Shown here in pieces: positions 11,856 to 32,105 of a stretch of 32,105 nt of DNA. This stretch comes from a virus. How positions within the stretch are numbered: the stretch's first letter is position 1; each line of letters begins with the position of its first letter. The translations under genes and the position numbers were made by a program. Under the pieces are notes generated by a model. It had not been told where the DNA came from, did no database searches, and saw only the letters and a list, made by a program, of their open reading frames with translations. The stretch covers positions 1 through 32,105 of IMG/VR virus record IMGVR_UViG_3300030451_000379; one strand, 5' to 3'.

Positions 11856-12799
11856 TGGCAGGAAGTATATACATACCTAGAACAGCAGCAATATCAGATA
11901 TTATTGAAACAGATAATGTTGAACCTACAGGACCAGGTGCAGATACAACACAGTTTGTTGTTGATTTATTAGGAGACCCTGATAGGAATAAACCTTTAGG
12001 AGAAGGATTTCAAAATGTATATCCATCAGAAATAGATTTTGAAGGAACTAAAGTAAAAAAGTTTATTGATGCTGAAGAATATTTAAAACAACAAGGATTT
12101 AGACATGTGTATTTTGCTTTTGACCCAGGAGAAGTAGCAAGAGATTTAACCAAACAAAACATAGCTTTACTTAAAACACAGATGGCAGGCGTAGGAATTA
12201 TAGACGCAAGTAAGACTGTAGGTCTTGCACCTGATGAAGAGTTTGTAAAAGGTATTAAAACACTTATGGAGTTTTCTATGAATGGTGGAGGCAAAATAAG
12301 TTGGTTAGGAGCATTAGCTGCAATACGTTCAGATTACAATGCTAGACAGTCTTTAATAACTAGCAACCCTAAGATTGAACGAGAACAACTAGATGAACTG
12401 TTAGATAGCACACTTACAAAAGCTAGAAGCAGAAAAGGTGGTGCATTAAGTGCTGAAGAAACACAATACATTGCTAATAGGGTATCTTCTATAACAAGAG
12501 AATTTAATACTGCTAGTGCAAACTTAACACAAGGAACTCCTGCAGAGTTTGGATATACACCTGCAAGGTTAGAAGGTATGAGAATAGTTGACCCTGTTGA
12601 GACATTTACACCTGCAATACCTGCACAAGAACCTGATGTAGAAGGATTAGAAGACGACATAGGTGGAGTATTAGATGAAGTATTTGAAGGCAGAGAAGAG
12701 TTACAACAAGAGTCTGAAGCTGCCGGACAAATAGGAGCTAGAGCTGCACGTACTATAAATAGTCTTACAAACTTAAGTAGAAGAGCAGTATCTAGGTAA
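11855..12799 (+). CDS. 314-residue candidate virion protein
   Basis: The gene has a GGAGAAG ribosome binding site upstream and couples by TAATG to the next gene. The chain begins MAGSIYIPRTAAISDIIETD, carries a mixed alpha/beta middle (about 60-200) and ends in a helical Glu- and Ala-rich segment (about 255-314). No catalytic motif, signal peptide or membrane segment is seen. It lies between the giant protein and the transglycosylase-like protein in a block with the order and size of podoviral internal core proteins, so a minor internal virion protein is my best inference. No family recognised. Confidence 0.7.
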   Translation: MAGSIYIPRTAAISDIIETDNVEPTGPGADTTQFVVDLLGDPDRNKPLGEGFQNVYPSEIDFEGTKVKKFIDAEEYLKQQGFRHVYFAFDPGEVARDLTKQNIALLKTQMAGVGIIDASKTVGLAPDEEFVKGIKTLMEFSMNGGGKISWLGALAAIRSDYNARQSLITSNPKIEREQLDELLDSTLTKARSRKGGALSAEETQYIANRVSSITREFNTASANLTQGTPAEFGYTPARLEGMRIVDPVETFTPAIPAQEPDVEGLEDDIGGVLDEVFEGREELQQESEAAGQIGARAARTINSLTNLSRRAVSR

Positions 12800-13707
12800 T
12801 GGAACCTGATTCATATACCACGATAGAGGTAATCGAAGCACTGCAAAGTGTTGGCGTTGCACAAGAAGTTATAGAGTATGTTGTACCTATAGCAGCTTAC
12901 GAATCAAGAGTTGATGGTATACCTTTTACTAGAGACGCAGAAGATAAATACTCTCCATCATTAGGTATATTTCAAGCTAACTTAAATTCAATGGCACCAG
13001 GTATATACAAAGCTATGAAAGAACTTGGTGTAGAAGTACCAGGAGTTACAAGTAAACAAGACAAAGTATTAGTAACAAACAACGCACAACCAGGTCAAGA
13101 AAATTTACTTAGATTCACAAGTGAACAAAAAGAATTTGTAGCTAACTGGTTTAAAACACAAGCAAATCTAAAAGACAATGCACTTGTTTTTAAATATATG
13201 CTTGAGCAAAAGTTAAAAGATGCAAACACAGATGATTTCAAAGAAGCTATGAAAGAGTTGTATGTTTTAACTATTGAAAAGTTTGAAGACCCAAACAATG
13301 AAGATGCACAACAACTAAAGCAAACGATAGAAAATGAAATGTTTATGACACCTCCGACAACAACGACTACAATACCTAGTACGGAAACAACAACAGTAGA
13401 CAACGAGGAAGATGTGCCACAAGAAGCAATAGACCCGACAAAAAGAACTAGAAGAGAGATGGAGTTTAGAAATAGATACTCCGGTAATTCTAAGTATGTA
13501 GAACAAGTACCTTCAGGTACGTTTCAAAAATCTTATGACCAGTTAGTAGATTTAGTAGAAGCACAGATTAACAGCCAAAGAGCAGTTAATGGACTTCCTC
13601 CCATAAAAAGAGAACAAGCTGATGCACAGGTCTATATGTCCGGCTCAGATAGCTTTAGAAAAGCTATTGATGTATTAAGAGGCGTTAGAGATAACGATGA
13701 CTCCTGA
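12799..13707 (+). CDS. Virion lytic transglycosylase-like protein
   Basis: 302 residues. Residues 32-62 carry the lysozyme-like transglycosylase pattern: AAYES with Glu35 as the likely catalytic acid followed by Ser, then a spacer and SPSLGIFQANL (52-62), which matches the S-x-G-(L/I)-F-Q-(I/A)-N signature of SLT domains. Such enzymes cut the glycan backbone of peptidoglycan. A Thr-rich linker (PPTTTTTIPSTETTTVD, about 184-202) separates the domain from a charged C-terminus. With no signal peptide and a place among virion genes, it probably acts from the particle to open the wall locally at infection rather than as the lysis enzyme. It ends with an 11-base overlap with the next gene. Confidence 0.7.
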   Translation: MEPDSYTTIEVIEALQSVGVAQEVIEYVVPIAAYESRVDGIPFTRDAEDKYSPSLGIFQANLNSMAPGIYKAMKELGVEVPGVTSKQDKVLVTNNAQPGQENLLRFTSEQKEFVANWFKTQANLKDNALVFKYMLEQKLKDANTDDFKEAMKELYVLTIEKFEDPNNEDAQQLKQTIENEMFMTPPTTTTTIPSTETTTVDNEEDVPQEAIDPTKRTRREMEFRNRYSGNSKYVEQVPSGTFQKSYDQLVDLVEAQINSQRAVNGLPPIKREQADAQVYMSGSDSFRKAIDVLRGVRDNDDS

Positions 13708-26650: not shown

Positions 26651-27343
26651 ATGACAACAAACATATATTGGTTTCTTATACAAAAAGAAGATTTGCCCCC
26701 TGCAATGTTGTACGAAGATGTACAATTTAAAAAAACAATAGTGCCTATATGTCCACAAACTGTTGCTTTAGACAAAAGAACATTAGTTATTAATATGCCA
26801 TTTAACTTAACATTACAAAGAAAAGAAGATGGTAGTTATTATGCAGAAAGCACAGAAGTAGTAGGTCAATCTTTATGGGAAGATAGACCTGTATTAGCAA
26901 TAGATACTGAAACTAAACTAAAAGGTTATGAAGAATACCCTATACTGCATATTAAAATACCATATATATTTCTTACTGAAAATAAAAATATAACTTATTA
27001 TTTACAAGGTCCTAAATCTAACACTAAACATAGTTTAAAAAATGTTATATTTGCAGAAGGTATGTTAAGTCCTGGACAATATGCAAGAGCAGTAGACGTA
27101 GCTATGATTATTCCTAATAACGAAAAGGTAACATTTGTTAAAGGAGAACCACTTGTTTATTTATATTTCAGTGATGATATTAATTTAAAAGAAATAATAC
27201 CTAATCAACCAATATTAAATTACATGACATCCATATACGGTGTTACTAATTATGTAAGAGGAGTTAGAAAAATATTTAAAAAAGCAAGCAGAAAATACCC
27301 TTACAAAGAATTAAAAAATTGTGAGATTGTAAATGCCGACTAG
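26651..27343 (+). CDS. Halogenase-associated family protein, copy 1 (unknown function)
   Basis: 230 residues with a strong AGGTGGA site. I do not recognise a named family. It shares with the two downstream proteins a Cys-Pro pair (C34-P35) followed by a short variable stretch and a proline (MPFNL), and a late strand ending in V-K-GEPL (165-168). The layout suggests a common beta-rich fold: PILHIKIPYIFLT (97-109) corresponds to the I-x-P-W/Y-F/Y-x-x-T strand of the others. It is the most divergent copy and lacks the N-terminal QPA-x-x-F-x-P-x-W motif. It overlaps the halogenase start by 11 bases, so it is surely co-expressed with it. Possible roles: partner, substrate carrier or enzyme of the same pathway. 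Confidence 0.7.
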   Translation: MTTNIYWFLIQKEDLPPAMLYEDVQFKKTIVPICPQTVALDKRTLVINMPFNLTLQRKEDGSYYAESTEVVGQSLWEDRPVLAIDTETKLKGYEEYPILHIKIPYIFLTENKNITYYLQGPKSNTKHSLKNVIFAEGMLSPGQYARAVDVAMIIPNNEKVTFVKGEPLVYLYFSDDINLKEIIPNQPILNYMTSIYGVTNYVRGVRKIFKKASRKYPYKELKNCEIVNAD

Positions 27344-28475
27344 ATTAGCAGTTATTGGCAAAGGAACAGCAGGTGCTATGGCTTATAATCATTTTGCAAA
27401 TTATACAAATTATGAAATAGATTGTTACTTTGACAGTACAAAAAAAGAACAAAGTGTAGGAGAAGGAACAACAATAAGTTTACCTAGAACACTACATCAT
27501 ACTATAGGTTTTGAATACTATATGTTACCTGAAGTAGATGGGCATTATAAAAATGGTATTGAATATATTGACTGGACTAATAAAAATTTTATGCACACAT
27601 TTCCTGCTCCTGACATATCTATGCACTTTAACGCAGTTAAATTACAAGAATATTTAAAAGATAAAAATAAAAATAGAGTAACTTTTAAAGATGTAAATGT
27701 AGAAAATATATATGATATAAATGCAGATTACATAATAGATTGTTCAGGCACTCCAAGTAATTATGCTGAACATAGTGTTGCAAAATATATACCAGTAAAC
27801 GCAGTTTACGTTAGACAATGTATGTGGGATTTCCCAAGATATGATTATACATTATGTATTGCTAGACCTTACGGATGGATATTTGGGATACCATTAAGAA
27901 ATAGAATTTCTTTTGGGTATTTGTATAACAATAAAATAAATAAATTAAAAGATGTTGAAGAAGATTTGTTAAATGTAATTGAATCATACAAGTTAAAAGA
28001 TAATTTAACAGAAGTGCAAGGCAAAGCACAGTTTAAAAATTACTATAGAAAAGAAAATTTTTATGAAAGAATTACGTACAACGGTAATGCTTCGTTTTTC
28101 TTAGAGCCTATGGAAGCTACCAGTTTAACTACAGTAGACAACATTAACAGAAAAGTATTTGATATATTAGAAAATAATGCAGATTACAACACACAAAATA
28201 TATGGTATAAAGAAAAATTTAAAGAACTTCAAGATATTATTGTGATGCACTACTTAGGTGCAACTAAATATGACACAGAGTTTTGGGACTATGCAAAAGA
28301 ATTAGCACAAGATTGTTTAAGCAATACATCATACAGATTTAAAGATATACTTAAAAATGTACACGATAATAATTACGAATTAGATGATGATTATGGTGTA
28401 TGGGGAATGCACAGTTTTAAACAAAACATATATTCTATGAATATATTAAAAGCATTGGAGGATTTAAATGTTTAA
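27333..28475 (+). CDS. Flavin-dependent tryptophan halogenase-like protein
   Basis: 380 residues. FAD-binding G-x-G-x-x-G is VIGKGTAGAMA (residues 7-17), in the form usual for this family. SVGEGTTISLP (41-51) and HYKNGIEYIDW (71-81) follow, with Lys73 where the catalytic lysine of PrnA (Lys79) is expected. The halogenase signature W-x-W-x-I-P appears as W182-I-F184-G-I186-P187, so the second Trp is Phe. FFLEPMEATS (255-264) matches the family's F-L-E-P-L-E-S-T-S segment that carries the active-site Glu. At 380 residues it is shorter than PrnA or RebH (about 530), mainly at the C-terminus. These enzymes chlorinate, brominate or iodinate aromatic substrates with FADH2, O2 and halide; a cyanophage homologue (VirX1) is reported to iodinate. 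No flavin reductase is nearby. Substrate unknown. Confidence 0.85.
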   Translation: MPTRLAVIGKGTAGAMAYNHFANYTNYEIDCYFDSTKKEQSVGEGTTISLPRTLHHTIGFEYYMLPEVDGHYKNGIEYIDWTNKNFMHTFPAPDISMHFNAVKLQEYLKDKNKNRVTFKDVNVENIYDINADYIIDCSGTPSNYAEHSVAKYIPVNAVYVRQCMWDFPRYDYTLCIARPYGWIFGIPLRNRISFGYLYNNKINKLKDVEEDLLNVIESYKLKDNLTEVQGKAQFKNYYRKENFYERITYNGNASFFLEPMEATSLTTVDNINRKVFDILENNADYNTQNIWYKEKFKELQDIIVMHYLGATKYDTEFWDYAKELAQDCLSNTSYRFKDILKNVHDNNYELDDDYGVWGMHSFKQNIYSMNILKALEDLNV

Positions 28476-29220
28476 AAAAGAAAATCCATTGGTAGAATTT
28501 AGCACACCATTCAAAGGGTTAGAAAAAATACCTAGTTGTAGACCACAACCTGCTAAAAATTTTATACCAAAATGGTTTGAAAACTTAAGTCCTACTATAG
28601 ATGTCATACCTGATACTAGAAAAAATATACTTAGAGAATTAGATACAGTAGAAGATAGCGTAGGTAGATTAAAACCTAAAATGAAAACCGTAAAAACTTG
28701 TCCTAGTTTTGCTATGTTATTTCATAGTGGATGGGTAATACCTGCACATACAGATATGTATTTAAGGTGGGATGCACAGGGAGGTTATGCTTGGGAAACA
28801 CCTTATGAAAAATATGAAATACAAATACACGATGATGAACAAATGGTAAATCATTTACCTCCTGCTGCTAATGCGTCAAAAGTATTTAAAATAATAAGTC
28901 CTTGGTTTGTAAAGACTGCACCTGGATATAGTATGTATCAATTGCCTATGTTTTATCACTATAATCCTGATTGGTATATTCCTTTTGGTGTATTAGAAAC
29001 AGATAAACACCCTGTGCTTAACCATCAAGTAATAATGACCACTGATAAATATGAAGTAGTTATTAAACAAGGAGAACCATTAGCACATTATTTACCTTTT
29101 AAACGTGAAGAGTACGATATGAATATAGTTCCCTGGACTAATAAATGGGATGACCTTGTAGAAGAAAATGTAGTAAAAATACATGGTAAGTTTCGTGGAG
29201 GTTATTACAAAAATGTCTAA
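28468..29220 (+). CDS. Halogenase-associated family protein, copy 2 (unknown function)
   Basis: 250 residues, GGAGG (28457-28461) before the ATG, starting 8 bases before the halogenase stop. Motifs shared with copy 3: RPQPAKNFIPKWFENL (25-40), C78-P79, G-x-V-x-P-x-x-x-D, KIISPWFVKT (141-150) and QGEPL (201-205). This copy alone has His94-x-Asp96 after the Cys-Pro segment, with later histidines (H164, H186), which could be an iron-binding facial triad as in 2-oxoglutarate or cupin oxygenases. That is speculation, because the other copies lack the His. No membrane or signal segment. It is probably a cytosolic enzyme or binding protein of the halogenase pathway. Confidence 0.75.
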   Translation: MFKKENPLVEFSTPFKGLEKIPSCRPQPAKNFIPKWFENLSPTIDVIPDTRKNILRELDTVEDSVGRLKPKMKTVKTCPSFAMLFHSGWVIPAHTDMYLRWDAQGGYAWETPYEKYEIQIHDDEQMVNHLPPAANASKVFKIISPWFVKTAPGYSMYQLPMFYHYNPDWYIPFGVLETDKHPVLNHQVIMTTDKYEVVIKQGEPLAHYLPFKREEYDMNIVPWTNKWDDLVEENVVKIHGKFRGGYYKNV

Positions 29221-29947
29221 TTCTATAAAAGTATTTCCAAGAATTAAAGAGTATGAACCATTAGTGGAGTTGTACCCACCACAACCTGCCAATAAATTTT
29301 TACCTGATTGGTATAAAACACAAACTAAATTACAACGTGAAGACTCGGATACTTTGTTTGCTTCTAGTTGCCCTGCTATAAAAGATTACATGTTAGACGG
29401 AATAGTCTTTCCGTTGTGGTCTGATGTTGAAATAACTATAGAACATAAAGAACAAGTAACTTGGAATGTAAGAGTAGGAGATAGTTTAGCAATGCCTAAA
29501 GGACATCATTGGGTGCAAACACACCATAACTCACAGACAATAGGTATGAAATTAAATTCTTTAGAAAGTTTAGGAGCATTAAAATTTATACCTCCTTATT
29601 ACATTAAGACAGAAGATAACATTGGATTAGAATTTATAGATACGTTTTATCATTTCAGAAAAGATATAAGACTTTTACCTGGACAAGTGGAAACAGATAT
29701 ATGGAATGAAGTAAACTTTCCTTTTGAATTTTATAAAGATGTAGATGATTTAATAGGAACAACTATAAAAATAAAAGCAGGGACTCCTCTAATATTAGCT
29801 AAACCTTATGACATAAAAAGACACAAGTACGAAGTTGACGTACTTGAATACGATGATAAAGCCACTAAAGACTTTATAAAAAATGATGTATTAAATGCAG
29901 CTAGTTCTTATGATTGGACTACTTATAGGAAACGCTTTAGAAAATAA
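29213..29947 (+). CDS. Halogenase-associated family protein, copy 3 (unknown function)
   Basis: 244 residues from ATG 29213. An in-frame ATG exists at 29183, but the chosen start has GGAGG (29197-29201) 11 bases upstream and repeats the 8-base overlap seen at the halogenase / copy 2 junction. Shared motifs: PPQPANKFLPDWYKTQ (22-37), C53-P54, G-I-V-F-P-x-x-x-D, KFIPPYYIKT (124-133), and AGTPL (189-193) where copy 2 has QGEPL. Aromatic and histidine-rich GHHWVQTHH (97-105) is unique to this copy. The divergence between copies suggests separate substrates or subunits of a hetero-complex rather than recent duplicates. Last gene of the cassette; a promoter follows directly. Confidence 0.75.
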   Translation: MSNSIKVFPRIKEYEPLVELYPPQPANKFLPDWYKTQTKLQREDSDTLFASSCPAIKDYMLDGIVFPLWSDVEITIEHKEQVTWNVRVGDSLAMPKGHHWVQTHHNSQTIGMKLNSLESLGALKFIPPYYIKTEDNIGLEFIDTFYHFRKDIRLLPGQVETDIWNEVNFPFEFYKDVDDLIGTTIKIKAGTPLILAKPYDIKRHKYEVDVLEYDDKATKDFIKNDVLNAASSYDWTTYRKRFRK

Positions 29948-29954
29948 TATTATA

Positions 29955-29963
29955 TGATATAAT
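29955..29963 (+). promoter_or_regulatory. Perfect extended -10 promoter, probable leaderless start
   Basis: TGA then TATAAT (29958-29963) inside ATGATATAAT, identical over ten bases to the capsid-operon promoter. The ATG of the next gene is eight bases after TATAAT, and no ribosome binding site lies between. Transcription should begin at or within a base or two of the ATG, so the message would be leaderless. Confidence 0.6.
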
Positions 29964-29971
29964 CCTACATC

Positions 29972-30103
29972 ATGGATTTTTTAACAGGTTTTATTATAGG
30001 GTATCTTATAAAAGAAATAGGATTATATCTTAAAAGATTAGCTAATTATAAGCCACATCCAAAAGAAGATTGGGATTGGATTTCACACGAGGATTTACCG
30101 TAA
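29972..30103 (+). CDS. 43-residue membrane protein, lysis candidate
   Basis: MDFLTGFIIGYLIKEIGLYL starts with a hydrophobic segment (3-20) and is followed by KRLANYKPHPKEDWDWISHEDLP, a charged tail. It is the first gene after the extended -10 promoter and has no ribosome binding site, in keeping with a leaderless message. The stop is directly followed by the ATG of the next tiny membrane protein. Paired small membrane proteins late in a phage genome are often holin-type or host membrane modulators. No endolysin is visible in the window, so the lysis role is inferred. Confidence 0.65.
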   Translation: MDFLTGFIIGYLIKEIGLYLKRLANYKPHPKEDWDWISHEDLP

Positions 30104-30271
30104 ATGACCAACAACAATGGCTACACACAGAAGGAATTACTCAATATGGTCATTGAAAGACTTGATAGATTGGAAGAAAAACTAGATGCAAAACTAGATA
30201 AAGCAGAGTTTTACAAAGTATTAACGCTACTTGTAGCATTAGGTGGAGTTGTTGCAGCGATTGTAATGTAA
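30104..30271 (+). CDS. 55-residue coiled-coil / transmembrane protein, holin-like candidate
   Basis: MTNNNGYTQKELLNMVIERLDRLEEKLDAKLDK forms a short coiled coil (about 10-33), then a C-terminal membrane segment VLTLLVALGGVVAAIVM (39-55). Coil plus one terminal membrane span is the plan of XhlA-type holin-associated proteins and many actinophage lysis-cassette proteins. It begins right after the 43-residue gene's stop and ends with a TAATG overlap into the exported protein. Function inferred from architecture. Confidence 0.65.
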   Translation: MTNNNGYTQKELLNMVIERLDRLEEKLDAKLDKAEFYKVLTLLVALGGVVAAIVM

Positions 30272-32105
30272 TGCTGCGAGTCTTATTCGCAGTTTTTTTA
30301 CTGCTACCATTACCTTTGTATGCTAATGAAAATAGTACAGATACTACAGATACTTCTACCACTACTACTACTAGCACTACTACTACTACTATCCCAGGAG
30401 AAACCGAAGAAGTAGAAACCTTTGATGGTCCACCTCCTGTAGAAGAAGAGGAAGTTTTAGAGGAAGAGACTACTACAACTACTTCTACTACTACAACAAC
30501 TGTACCTGAAACCTGGGAACAAGCTACTGACATAGTTTTACCTGAAGATGAATTAGATACACAAGGTAATGAAGTAGAAAATAATATTGTCATAGATGAT
30601 ATTTGGTCAGGTAAGTATGGATGTACAGATTTTTGTATGAACCTTGAATACCAACAACACGGTGGAGATGGTGCTAATTATTCTTTTGATTTGCCTGAAA
30701 CAATAACAGTAGATGAAGAAGAACTTGAAATAGAAATATACGAAGTAGGTTTTATTGTAGGTGCAGTAAACAATGAAGGTAGTGTAACTTACACACATAC
30801 AGATGAAACAACAGAAACAGATACAATATCTGTACAACAATGGGTATCAGATGAAACTATGTGGGAAGAATATATTTATAACATATACGATACCTTAGAT
30901 ACATTTATTGATTCTTTTACTATTTATCTAAATGATTGGTCTTTACTAGATGACATATCTTTCAAGTATGTTATGCCTACTACAACTACCACCACTACAA
31001 CAACTACTACAACTTTGCCACCTCCACCACCTCCACCACCTCCACCACCACCACCTAAAGTTGTGGTTGTAATGGATGATGGTTCTGAAGCAGAATATGA
31101 AACTTATGAAGTAGAAGATGGAACAGTAGAGCGTGACAATGAGCGTAAAGCTAATGAAGATAAGTTTGGTTGTTATATGACTGATGCACAAATAGAGCGA
31201 GGAGATTGTGACATACCTGAAGAAGAACCTGTAGAAGAAGTTATAATTGTAGAAGATGAAGAACAATACGATACCGAAAAAGAGTTTTACGAAGATGATG
31301 ATATGGTACTTGACCTGGAGTCTGAAGATGAAGTGGAAGAACTTGAATCTATCAAAGAAGAGGATATTGTTGAAGAGGAGTTTGAGATTGACCTTGAGGA
31401 ACTTGAAGAAGAGTTTAAATTTGAAGAGGAAGATTTTGAACTAGAAGAAATAATTATAGTTATTGAGGAAGAGGTTGAAGAAAATGAGTTGGACGAAAAG
31501 GTACTTCGAGATGACGACATCGGAGAGAAAGAAATTCAAGAAGAAGATGTCCAAGACGAAGTTATACAGGAAGTAAAAGTACTTAAAGAAGATATTGTAG
31601 AGGAACTTACAGAAGAAGAAGTAGCTTTAGAAGTAGCAGAGATAGAAGAAGTTGTAGAAGTTCCTATCGTAGAAGAAGATGCAACAGAAGAAGAAGTTGC
31701 TGAAGCTATAGAAGAATATGTAGAGGAATTAGAAACAGAAGAAGTCATAGAAGTTCTTGAAGAGGTCAATGATATTGGTGTGCAGGAACTAGAAAATGTA
31801 TCAGAAGAAGTACAAGAAGTTATCCAAGCAGTAGTAGAGGAAGCTATTGAAGACGTAGAAGAACTTACAGAAGAGCAAGTTGCAGTCGTAGCAGAAGTAT
31901 TACAAGTAGAAGAAGATGATGTTGAGATTATTGCAGAAGCAGTTAAAGAAGATGAAGTTGTAGCTGAAGCAGTAGAAGAGTATGTAGAGAGAGCAGTAGA
32001 AAACTCAGACGTAGAGAATTACACACTCGCTGATGTTGTCACAGAAGTAACTTATGAGGCGTTCCTCGAAAATCCTGTAGAAGTTTTTGTTGATTTAGAT
32101 TTTGA
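30271..32105 (+). CDS. Exported Thr/Pro-tract and Glu-rich protein, truncated by window edge
   Basis: The frame begins at ATG 30271 (TAATG overlap) and stays open for 611 codons to the right edge, so the C-terminus is missing. Residues 1-18 (MLRVLFAVFLLLPLPLYA) are a clear signal peptide. Then come Thr tracts (about 24-40 and 67-77), a globular part (about 80-232) with C118 and C122, a run of 12 Thr (237-248) followed by 13 Pro (250-262), a short segment with C301 and C313, and a very acidic, mostly helical part (315-611) full of E-E-V and V-E-E repeats ending ENYTLADVVTEVTYEAFLENPVEVF. The four cysteines could form disulfides outside the membrane. Thr/Pro tracts look like wall-spanning or glycosylated stalks. 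Role unknown: surface exclusion, envelope binding, or a lysis accessory are options. Confidence 0.8.
   Translation, partial: MLRVLFAVFLLLPLPLYANENSTDTTDTSTTTTTSTTTTTIPGETEEVETFDGPPPVEEEEVLEEETTTTTSTTTTTVPETWEQATDIVLPEDELDTQGNEVENNIVIDDIWSGKYGCTDFCMNLEYQQHGGDGANYSFDLPETITVDEEELEIEIYEVGFIVGAVNNEGSVTYTHTDETTETDTISVQQWVSDETMWEEYIYNIYDTLDTFIDSFTIYLNDWSLLDDISFKYVMPTTTTTTTTTTTTLPPPPPPPPPPPPPKVVVVMDDGSEAEYETYEVEDGTVERDNERKANEDKFGCYMTDAQIERGDCDIPEEEPVEEVIIVEDEEQYDTEKEFYEDDDMVLDLESEDEVEELESIKEEDIVEEEFEIDLEELEEEFKFEEEDFELEEIIIVIEEEVEENELDEKVLRDDDIGEKEIQEEDVQDEVIQEVKVLKEDIVEELTEEEVALEVAEIEEVVEVPIVEEDATEEEVAEAIEEYVEELETEEVIEVLEEVNDIGVQELENVSEEVQEVIQAVVEEAIEDVEELTEEQVAVVAEVLQVEEDDVEIIAEAVKEDEVVAEAVEEYVERAVENSDVENYTLADVVTEVTYEAFLENPVEVFVDLDF

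Follow-up and report, generated by a model that had tools for sequence, protein, structure and literature searches.

What would a phage do with a large exported protein that carries threonine tracts, a proline stalk and a long glutamate-rich region? This question is raised by the right-hand end of the viral contig IMGVR_UViG_3300030451_000379, of which positions 1-32,105 were analysed (in the following we refer to this whole stretch of 32,105 nucleotides as the window). A frame on the plus strand (30271-32105) starts with the ATG at 30271, which overlaps the stop codon of the upstream gene (TAATG), and remains open for 611 codons through 32103, until it is interrupted by the contig end with ~30 codons missing. 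The absence of a stop within the window had already been reported in a preliminary description of this DNA and is confirmed here.

The frame represents a real exported protein. Indeed, when this stretch was shuffled 500 times, the longest open frame obtained had 185 codons, as compared to the 611 observed. A read error or frameshift, one of the reservations attached to the preliminary description, is ruled out: the frame is unbroken in 13 relatives, with dN/dS values of 0.11-0.44 per region, and the nearest relative (L001) is 97% identical to the window protein. The Ser-rich frames on the opposite strand are likewise ruled out as genes, being no more than Glu codons read as TCT, in agreement with the earlier view that they mirror Glu and Thr codons.

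Residues 1-18 (30271-30324, plus strand), MLRVLFAVFLLLPLPLYA, read directly as a signal peptide and are followed by NEN, which gives a cleavage site of the A-x-A type. A fixed, rule-based test with controls, used instead of SignalP, found a signal peptide-like N-terminus in 100 of the 102 distinct members of the family, but only in 6 of 321 control ORFs taken from the same contigs. No lipobox Cys occurs at these A-x-A cleavage sites (e.g. YA/NEN, LA/DH and FA/EE, the slash marking cleavage). Three loci (L044, L066 and L085) show short Cys/Gly-rich reading stretches (MDCCG or similar) directly before the signal peptide. Downstream of it, Thr-rich linkers precede a head or ectodomain (residues ~84-234; 30520-30972, plus strand), and the last of three Thr tracts forms, together with a proline run, the stalk T12-L-P13 (residues 236-262, with the tract itself at 237-262; 30976-31056, plus strand). 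A TTTTTIP linker similar in style to this stalk is also present in a protein of the structural block (12799-13707).

The protein contains four Cys (118, 122, 301 and 313), the last two of which lie in a small folded domain behind the stalk (31057-31212, plus strand; pLDDT ~80 in the AlphaFold model). This Cys pair is complete in 63 members and entirely absent from 25, while a single Cys was never found, although shared ancestry may lower the number of independent events behind these counts. Since both residues are kept or lost together, they may well form a disulfide, as expected outside the cytoplasm. The remaining part of the window protein (residues 314-611) consists of 34.6% Glu and has a net charge of -121, and net charges range from -105 to -205 across members. 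It begins with an acidic, mostly disordered and indel-rich stretch of ~180 residues (31216-31755, plus strand; low pLDDT) and continues into a helical, Val/Glu-rich part (31762-32103, plus strand), cut in the window ahead of a hydrophobic tail; in the relative L002 helices are predicted for residues 451-593. Among 14 sequences dN/dS amounts to 0.13 for the signal peptide, 0.17 for the head, 0.44 for the acidic region, 0.11 for the C-terminal helices and 0.12 for the tail. The acidic region is therefore a loosely constrained, fastest evolving spacer and the C-terminus the most constrained part. The full-length AlphaFold model is of low confidence (mean pLDDT 48.9) and was set aside for the C-terminus. 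In sum, signal peptide, Thr tracts, stalk, Cys and Glu-rich part had all been described correctly from the composition.

The end missing from the window is supplied by full-length relatives such as L002 (641 aa), which suggest a complete window-type protein of ~641 aa terminating in ...DMTQDQKEKAQEVVVPVILTRIASMAAFVFRRSL. In each of the 65 complete members of the initial set, the last 34 residues contain a strongly hydrophobic 17-mer (mean Kyte-Doolittle value 2.13, low helical moment) with two or three basic residues behind it. In a fixed tail test the hydrophobic-plus-RR tail was recovered from 98 of 102 members, as opposed to none of the 321 control ORFs from the same contigs. The C-terminus, which it had earlier been suggested to locate, thus shows a membrane-type tail, and the topology is well supported: in its simplest reading, the protein is probably a type-I membrane protein with its N-terminus outside. 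A peripheral or processed tail is conceivable, as the candidate anchor helix extends over only 15-18 residues and in most cases contains one conserved Arg. The C-terminal motif KAQEVVVP was not found in 41 of the 42 genomes that represent the presumed host order; by this motif test, it is therefore no general sorting signal of the host.

The head of the window protein appears to be a jelly-roll beta-sandwich like those of carbohydrate-binding modules (CBM). When the head of the close relative L002 was modelled alone, its core reached pLDDT values of mostly 72-94, and the best Foldseek match of this model was CBM61 (2xom; E 3.9e-5, TM 0.52 on the target). The VIA comparison with CBM61 gave Z 8.8 and an rmsd of 3.3 over 121 residues, and CBM6 and CBM29 structures are also similar. 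What is shared is the fold only; neither Pfam nor profiles against PDB sequences place the head in any CBM family. Jelly-roll folds of this kind are common and the scores are modest, and the models therefore no more than suggest that window-type heads bind glycans. Among the 102 distinct members, four head types can be distinguished (A in 51, B in 38, C in 8 and D in 5). The jelly-rolls of types A and C are related to each other, and type D looks alike by eye. Type B heads are FN3-like: a repeat in L023 matches PF00041 with 29.7 bits (cut-off 25; E 7.8e-7), while the fn3 profile fails to recognise the first type B unit itself. None of the 102 carries an enzyme in its head, and no catalytic wall-hydrolase domain was found in Pfam, PHROGs or NCBIfam. 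Comparison of otherwise near-identical backbones indicates that ectodomains are exchanged: L065 and L104 are 90% identical in the C-terminus and the downstream DNA, yet their heads cannot be aligned, and a second swap is seen between L044 and L073 (backbone 87% identical). A weak test revealed no obvious link between head type and the family of the neighbouring tail adhesin.

The family is new and widespread, and as far as tested it is unnamed. A scan of viral contigs yielded 44 relatives and a profile scan at least 526 IMG/VR stretches with the family. No family match was obtained from Pfam, PHROGs or NCBIfam, nor from PADLOC at E 0.01 (three members and their neighbours), and the protein has no match in the cultured phage collection. 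In 84,980 species genomes only four loci were detected, all of them phage-like. Some relatives (L048 and L049) occur in a MAG named Gammaproteobacteria MED855, and we assume that they are mis-binned phage contigs. The 44-kb contig IMGVR_UViG_3300030380_002584 bears, near its ends, two differing copies of the gene's C-terminal part (L019 and L087), which reflect either a chimeric assembly or a second copy.

The gene is part of an operon that is preceded by an extended -10 promoter (29936-29963, plus strand), with TGATATAAT at 29955-29963, a -35-like TTTAGA at 29936 and a distance of 8 nt to the ATG at 29972. This is the best-scoring promoter-like site with TG. Extended -10 motifs 6-9 nt ahead of the ATG of the first small gene are found in 77 of 80 distinct loci, but in only 8 of 1002 control ORFs. 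The plus strand of the window holds three extended -10 sites, of which two are intergenic; the other intergenic one (17785) lies in the gap ahead of the genes leading to the capsid gene. Because only 6-9 nt separate motif and ATG, the mRNA is probably leaderless. The first gene (29972-30103, plus strand) specifies a small membrane protein of 43 aa (MDFLTGFIIGYLIKE...), with homologous ORFs in 80 distinct loci. It is followed by a 55 aa protein (30104-30271, plus strand) with a coiled part and a C-terminal membrane helix, whose stop overlaps the start of the surface-protein gene. This second protein is XhlA-like by architecture only, with no significant Pfam match, and its homologue is located directly upstream of the surface-protein gene in most relatives and downstream in a few. 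The proposal of a promoter with no leader, from which two small membrane proteins are expressed ahead of the surface protein, is thus supported.

In relatives, the downstream genes encode tm60 (with two membrane passes), a DUF5675 protein (E 1e-29) and an r1t-type holin (PHROG holin, E 8e-6), so that the order in most loci is small TM protein, XhlA-like protein, surface protein, tm60, DUF5675, r1t-type holin. Relative to the stop of the surface-protein gene, tm60 starts at -3 or 0 in 55 of 65 cases, and the distance does not exceed 7 nt in 61 of 65. Every testable tm60 gene (76/76) is preceded by a copy of the surface protein, in a scan that favours close relatives. No regular promoter was found ahead of the lysis genes, and the operon is probably transcribed together with them and apart from the tail genes. 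Upstream of the operon are accessory genes, including one for a tryptophan halogenase-like protein (27333-28475; PF04820, E 7.4e-31; PHROG 2928). Two overlapping neighbouring genes (28468-29220 and 29183-29947) are mutually 22% identical, weakly DUF6065-like and situated near the operon in many relatives.

Window-type phages probably infect tiny ocean actinobacteria. The window capsid protein has matches in no more than 24 phages, whose host, where named, is nearly always an actinobacterium, and copies from MAGs stem from phage contigs of the Actinomycetota MAG RS345. On one MAG contig a 12 kb stretch occurs twice, 43.9 kb apart and with 99.98% identity, and the contig is therefore a phage genome rather than a chromosome. 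The order of the gene-bearing MAG comprises 42 genomes, 0.6-1.1 Mb in size; of these, 30 of 41 contain T8-hydrophobic-Pro tracts, as against 2 of 39 genomes of a gammaproteobacterial order, and the order's own stalked proteins bear FN3-like and jelly-roll-like domains, as judged by eye. The impression that the composition recalls marine actinobacteria accordingly holds for the style of the stalk. By contrast, there is no support for the idea that the ENYTLADVV...NPVEVF segment was captured from a host: this segment and the C-terminal motif were met only in phage copies in the ~42 genomes of the order, where a single-sequence search missed even copies known to be there and so carries no weight alone, and the four loci from the species-wide scan are phage-like as well.

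A second genome of the order (G048) contains a 29,719-bp phage contig (35.4% GC) that encodes a capsid and a portal of the HK97 type as well as an amidase and an enlarged WhiB protein (7964-8611 in L130; PF02467, E 1.6e-10). It fits the Actinomarinales phage published from the single cell AG-919-G14 (29 kb, 35.5% GC, WhiB of twice the normal size; PMC7771536), with which we infer it to be identical. WhiB was absent from 11 viral contigs of window-type phages and was dropped as a host marker for them. The contig of the WhiB phage is broken off within a surface-protein homologue of type B, with an XhlA-like gene before and tm60 after it, and an amidase endolysin lies downstream. The operon lacks the conserved promoter, and the window's TerL, portal and capsid have no match in this contig. 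Two unrelated virion lineages hence share the envelope module. Six tandem genes for proteins of ~170-210 aa precede the operon in this phage (4819-8150 in L131); two have relatives in window-type phages and are perhaps tail adhesins.

These features lead us to propose, with a probability of roughly 0.4, that the protein is displayed on the host surface and acts around lysis as a receptor mask or exclusion factor, and that it is probably not part of the virion. The signal peptide would export it, and the C-terminal hydrophobic helix would probably hold it in the cytoplasmic membrane, leaving the RR tail on the inner side. Acidic region and Thr/Pro stalk could then span the cell wall and present the folded head, CBM-like in the window and composed of FN3-like units in relatives, at the surface. 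It would be made with its partner tm60 from an operon that runs on into endolysin and holin candidates. Late in infection the head may occupy or hide surface receptors, whereby progeny and rival phages would be kept from adsorbing to the doomed cell or its fragments. Export and envelope anchoring, as in the class of exclusion proteins, are predicted for nearly all members (100 and 98 of 102, respectively). Action at the host envelope had been anticipated in the preliminary description and is supported by the membrane-type tail and the co-operonic holin- and endolysin-like genes, while the option of wall remodelling is disfavoured by the absence of a catalytic domain.

The same operon could, however, point to lysis itself. 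The protein would in this case control or aid envelope rupture together with tm60 and the XhlA-like protein, e.g. as a membrane-wall link that holds or releases holin or endolysin, and the head would merely bind host-specific wall glycans. The gene order, the overlap with tm60, the lack of a separate regular promoter for the lysis genes, the amidase endolysin of the second phage type and a C-terminus more conserved than the head are all consistent with such a role. On the other hand, no catalytic domain was found in Pfam, PHROGs or NCBIfam, and known holin/antiholin regulation needs no such large exchangeable surface head. We consider a lysis factor possible, and lean towards masking or exclusion because the exposed head varies and is swapped, no enzyme is present and a precedent exists in Llp of phage T5; the lysis role stays at almost equal weight since the gene is co-operonic with holin and endolysin candidates.

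Evidence from the sequences favours a role at the host envelope over a virion component, e.g. a tail adhesin whose hydrophobic N-terminus is not a signal peptide. The gene does follow the tail genes, and its jelly-roll heads are akin to minor tail protein and tail fibre domains in BFVD. Nevertheless, signal peptide and A-x-A site are retained across unrelated heads, the C-terminal tail is of membrane type, the promoter is the operon's own and is probably shared with the lysis genes, and a conserved C-terminus with a variable N-terminus is the opposite of usual tail fibres. The set of surface protein, tm60 and XhlA-like protein recurs with unrelated TerL, portal and capsid, so that a host-directed role fits better, and we regard a virion component as the least probable reading. 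Only slightly less improbable is another function at the surface, such as sticking infected cells together or to particles, deterring grazers, or binding of a nutrient or cation by the acidic region. Adhesion-like modules (FN3, CBM-like) and the high negative charge would agree with this, but it would not predict the conserved tie to the lysis operon or tm60.

Receptor masking would be analogous to the function of T5 Llp, an exclusion protein whose gene is next to the receptor-binding gene and which keeps phages from adsorbing to infected cells and their fragments (PMC9586334). Like Llp/Cor, the surface protein is made by a phage for the envelope, its gene adjoins an adsorption gene, and its proposed role is to prevent adsorption to cells already infected and to lysed fragments. 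It would do so by another route: Llp is a small lipoprotein of the periplasm whose target is a Gram-negative receptor, whereas the surface protein has ~640 aa and no lipobox, bears exchangeable heads on a stalk and has a C-terminal tail; no relationship to Llp/Cor was found at the sequence level. Furthermore, Llp-type proteins are described as expressed early (PMC9586334), whereas the surface-protein gene is co-operonic with lysis genes, which counts against masking. A large exported cell-surface protein with a constant anchor and a variable head is also known from Clostridioides difficile, where CwpV combines a constant anchoring part with several exposed types and blocks phage infection, probably at DNA injection (PMC4737114); CwpV differs in being host-encoded, wall-anchored via PF04122 and phase-variable, with no known homology to the phage protein. 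Similarly, stalked surface proteins of streamlined marine actinobacteria have, between FN3-like and jelly-roll-like domains, long Thr tracts that end in hydrophobic-Pro, but head and C-terminus have no detectable homology outside the phage copies. Finally, small TM proteins adjoin endolysin or holin candidates in actinophage lysis cassettes too, from which the present cassette is set apart by a large modular exported protein absent from Pfam, PHROGs, NCBIfam and PADLOC.

In combination, masking and the exchange of heads would amount to a surface-coating system, which we put forward tentatively: infected marine actinobacteria may be dressed before the burst in membrane-tethered lectin-like or FN3 heads that hide receptors from progeny and rivals, and the cassette may be traded among phages that have a host in common but unrelated virions. 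To our knowledge, almost nothing is known about how phages act on the surface of streamlined ocean actinobacteria, as host and phage are uncultured. The family, which is abundant in marine viral contigs, provides a concrete candidate for such action. As heads are exchanged on a constant anchor, the head could be read as a marker of receptor or competition type, and the promoter, sharply conserved and probably leaderless, offers access to how these phages express their genes.
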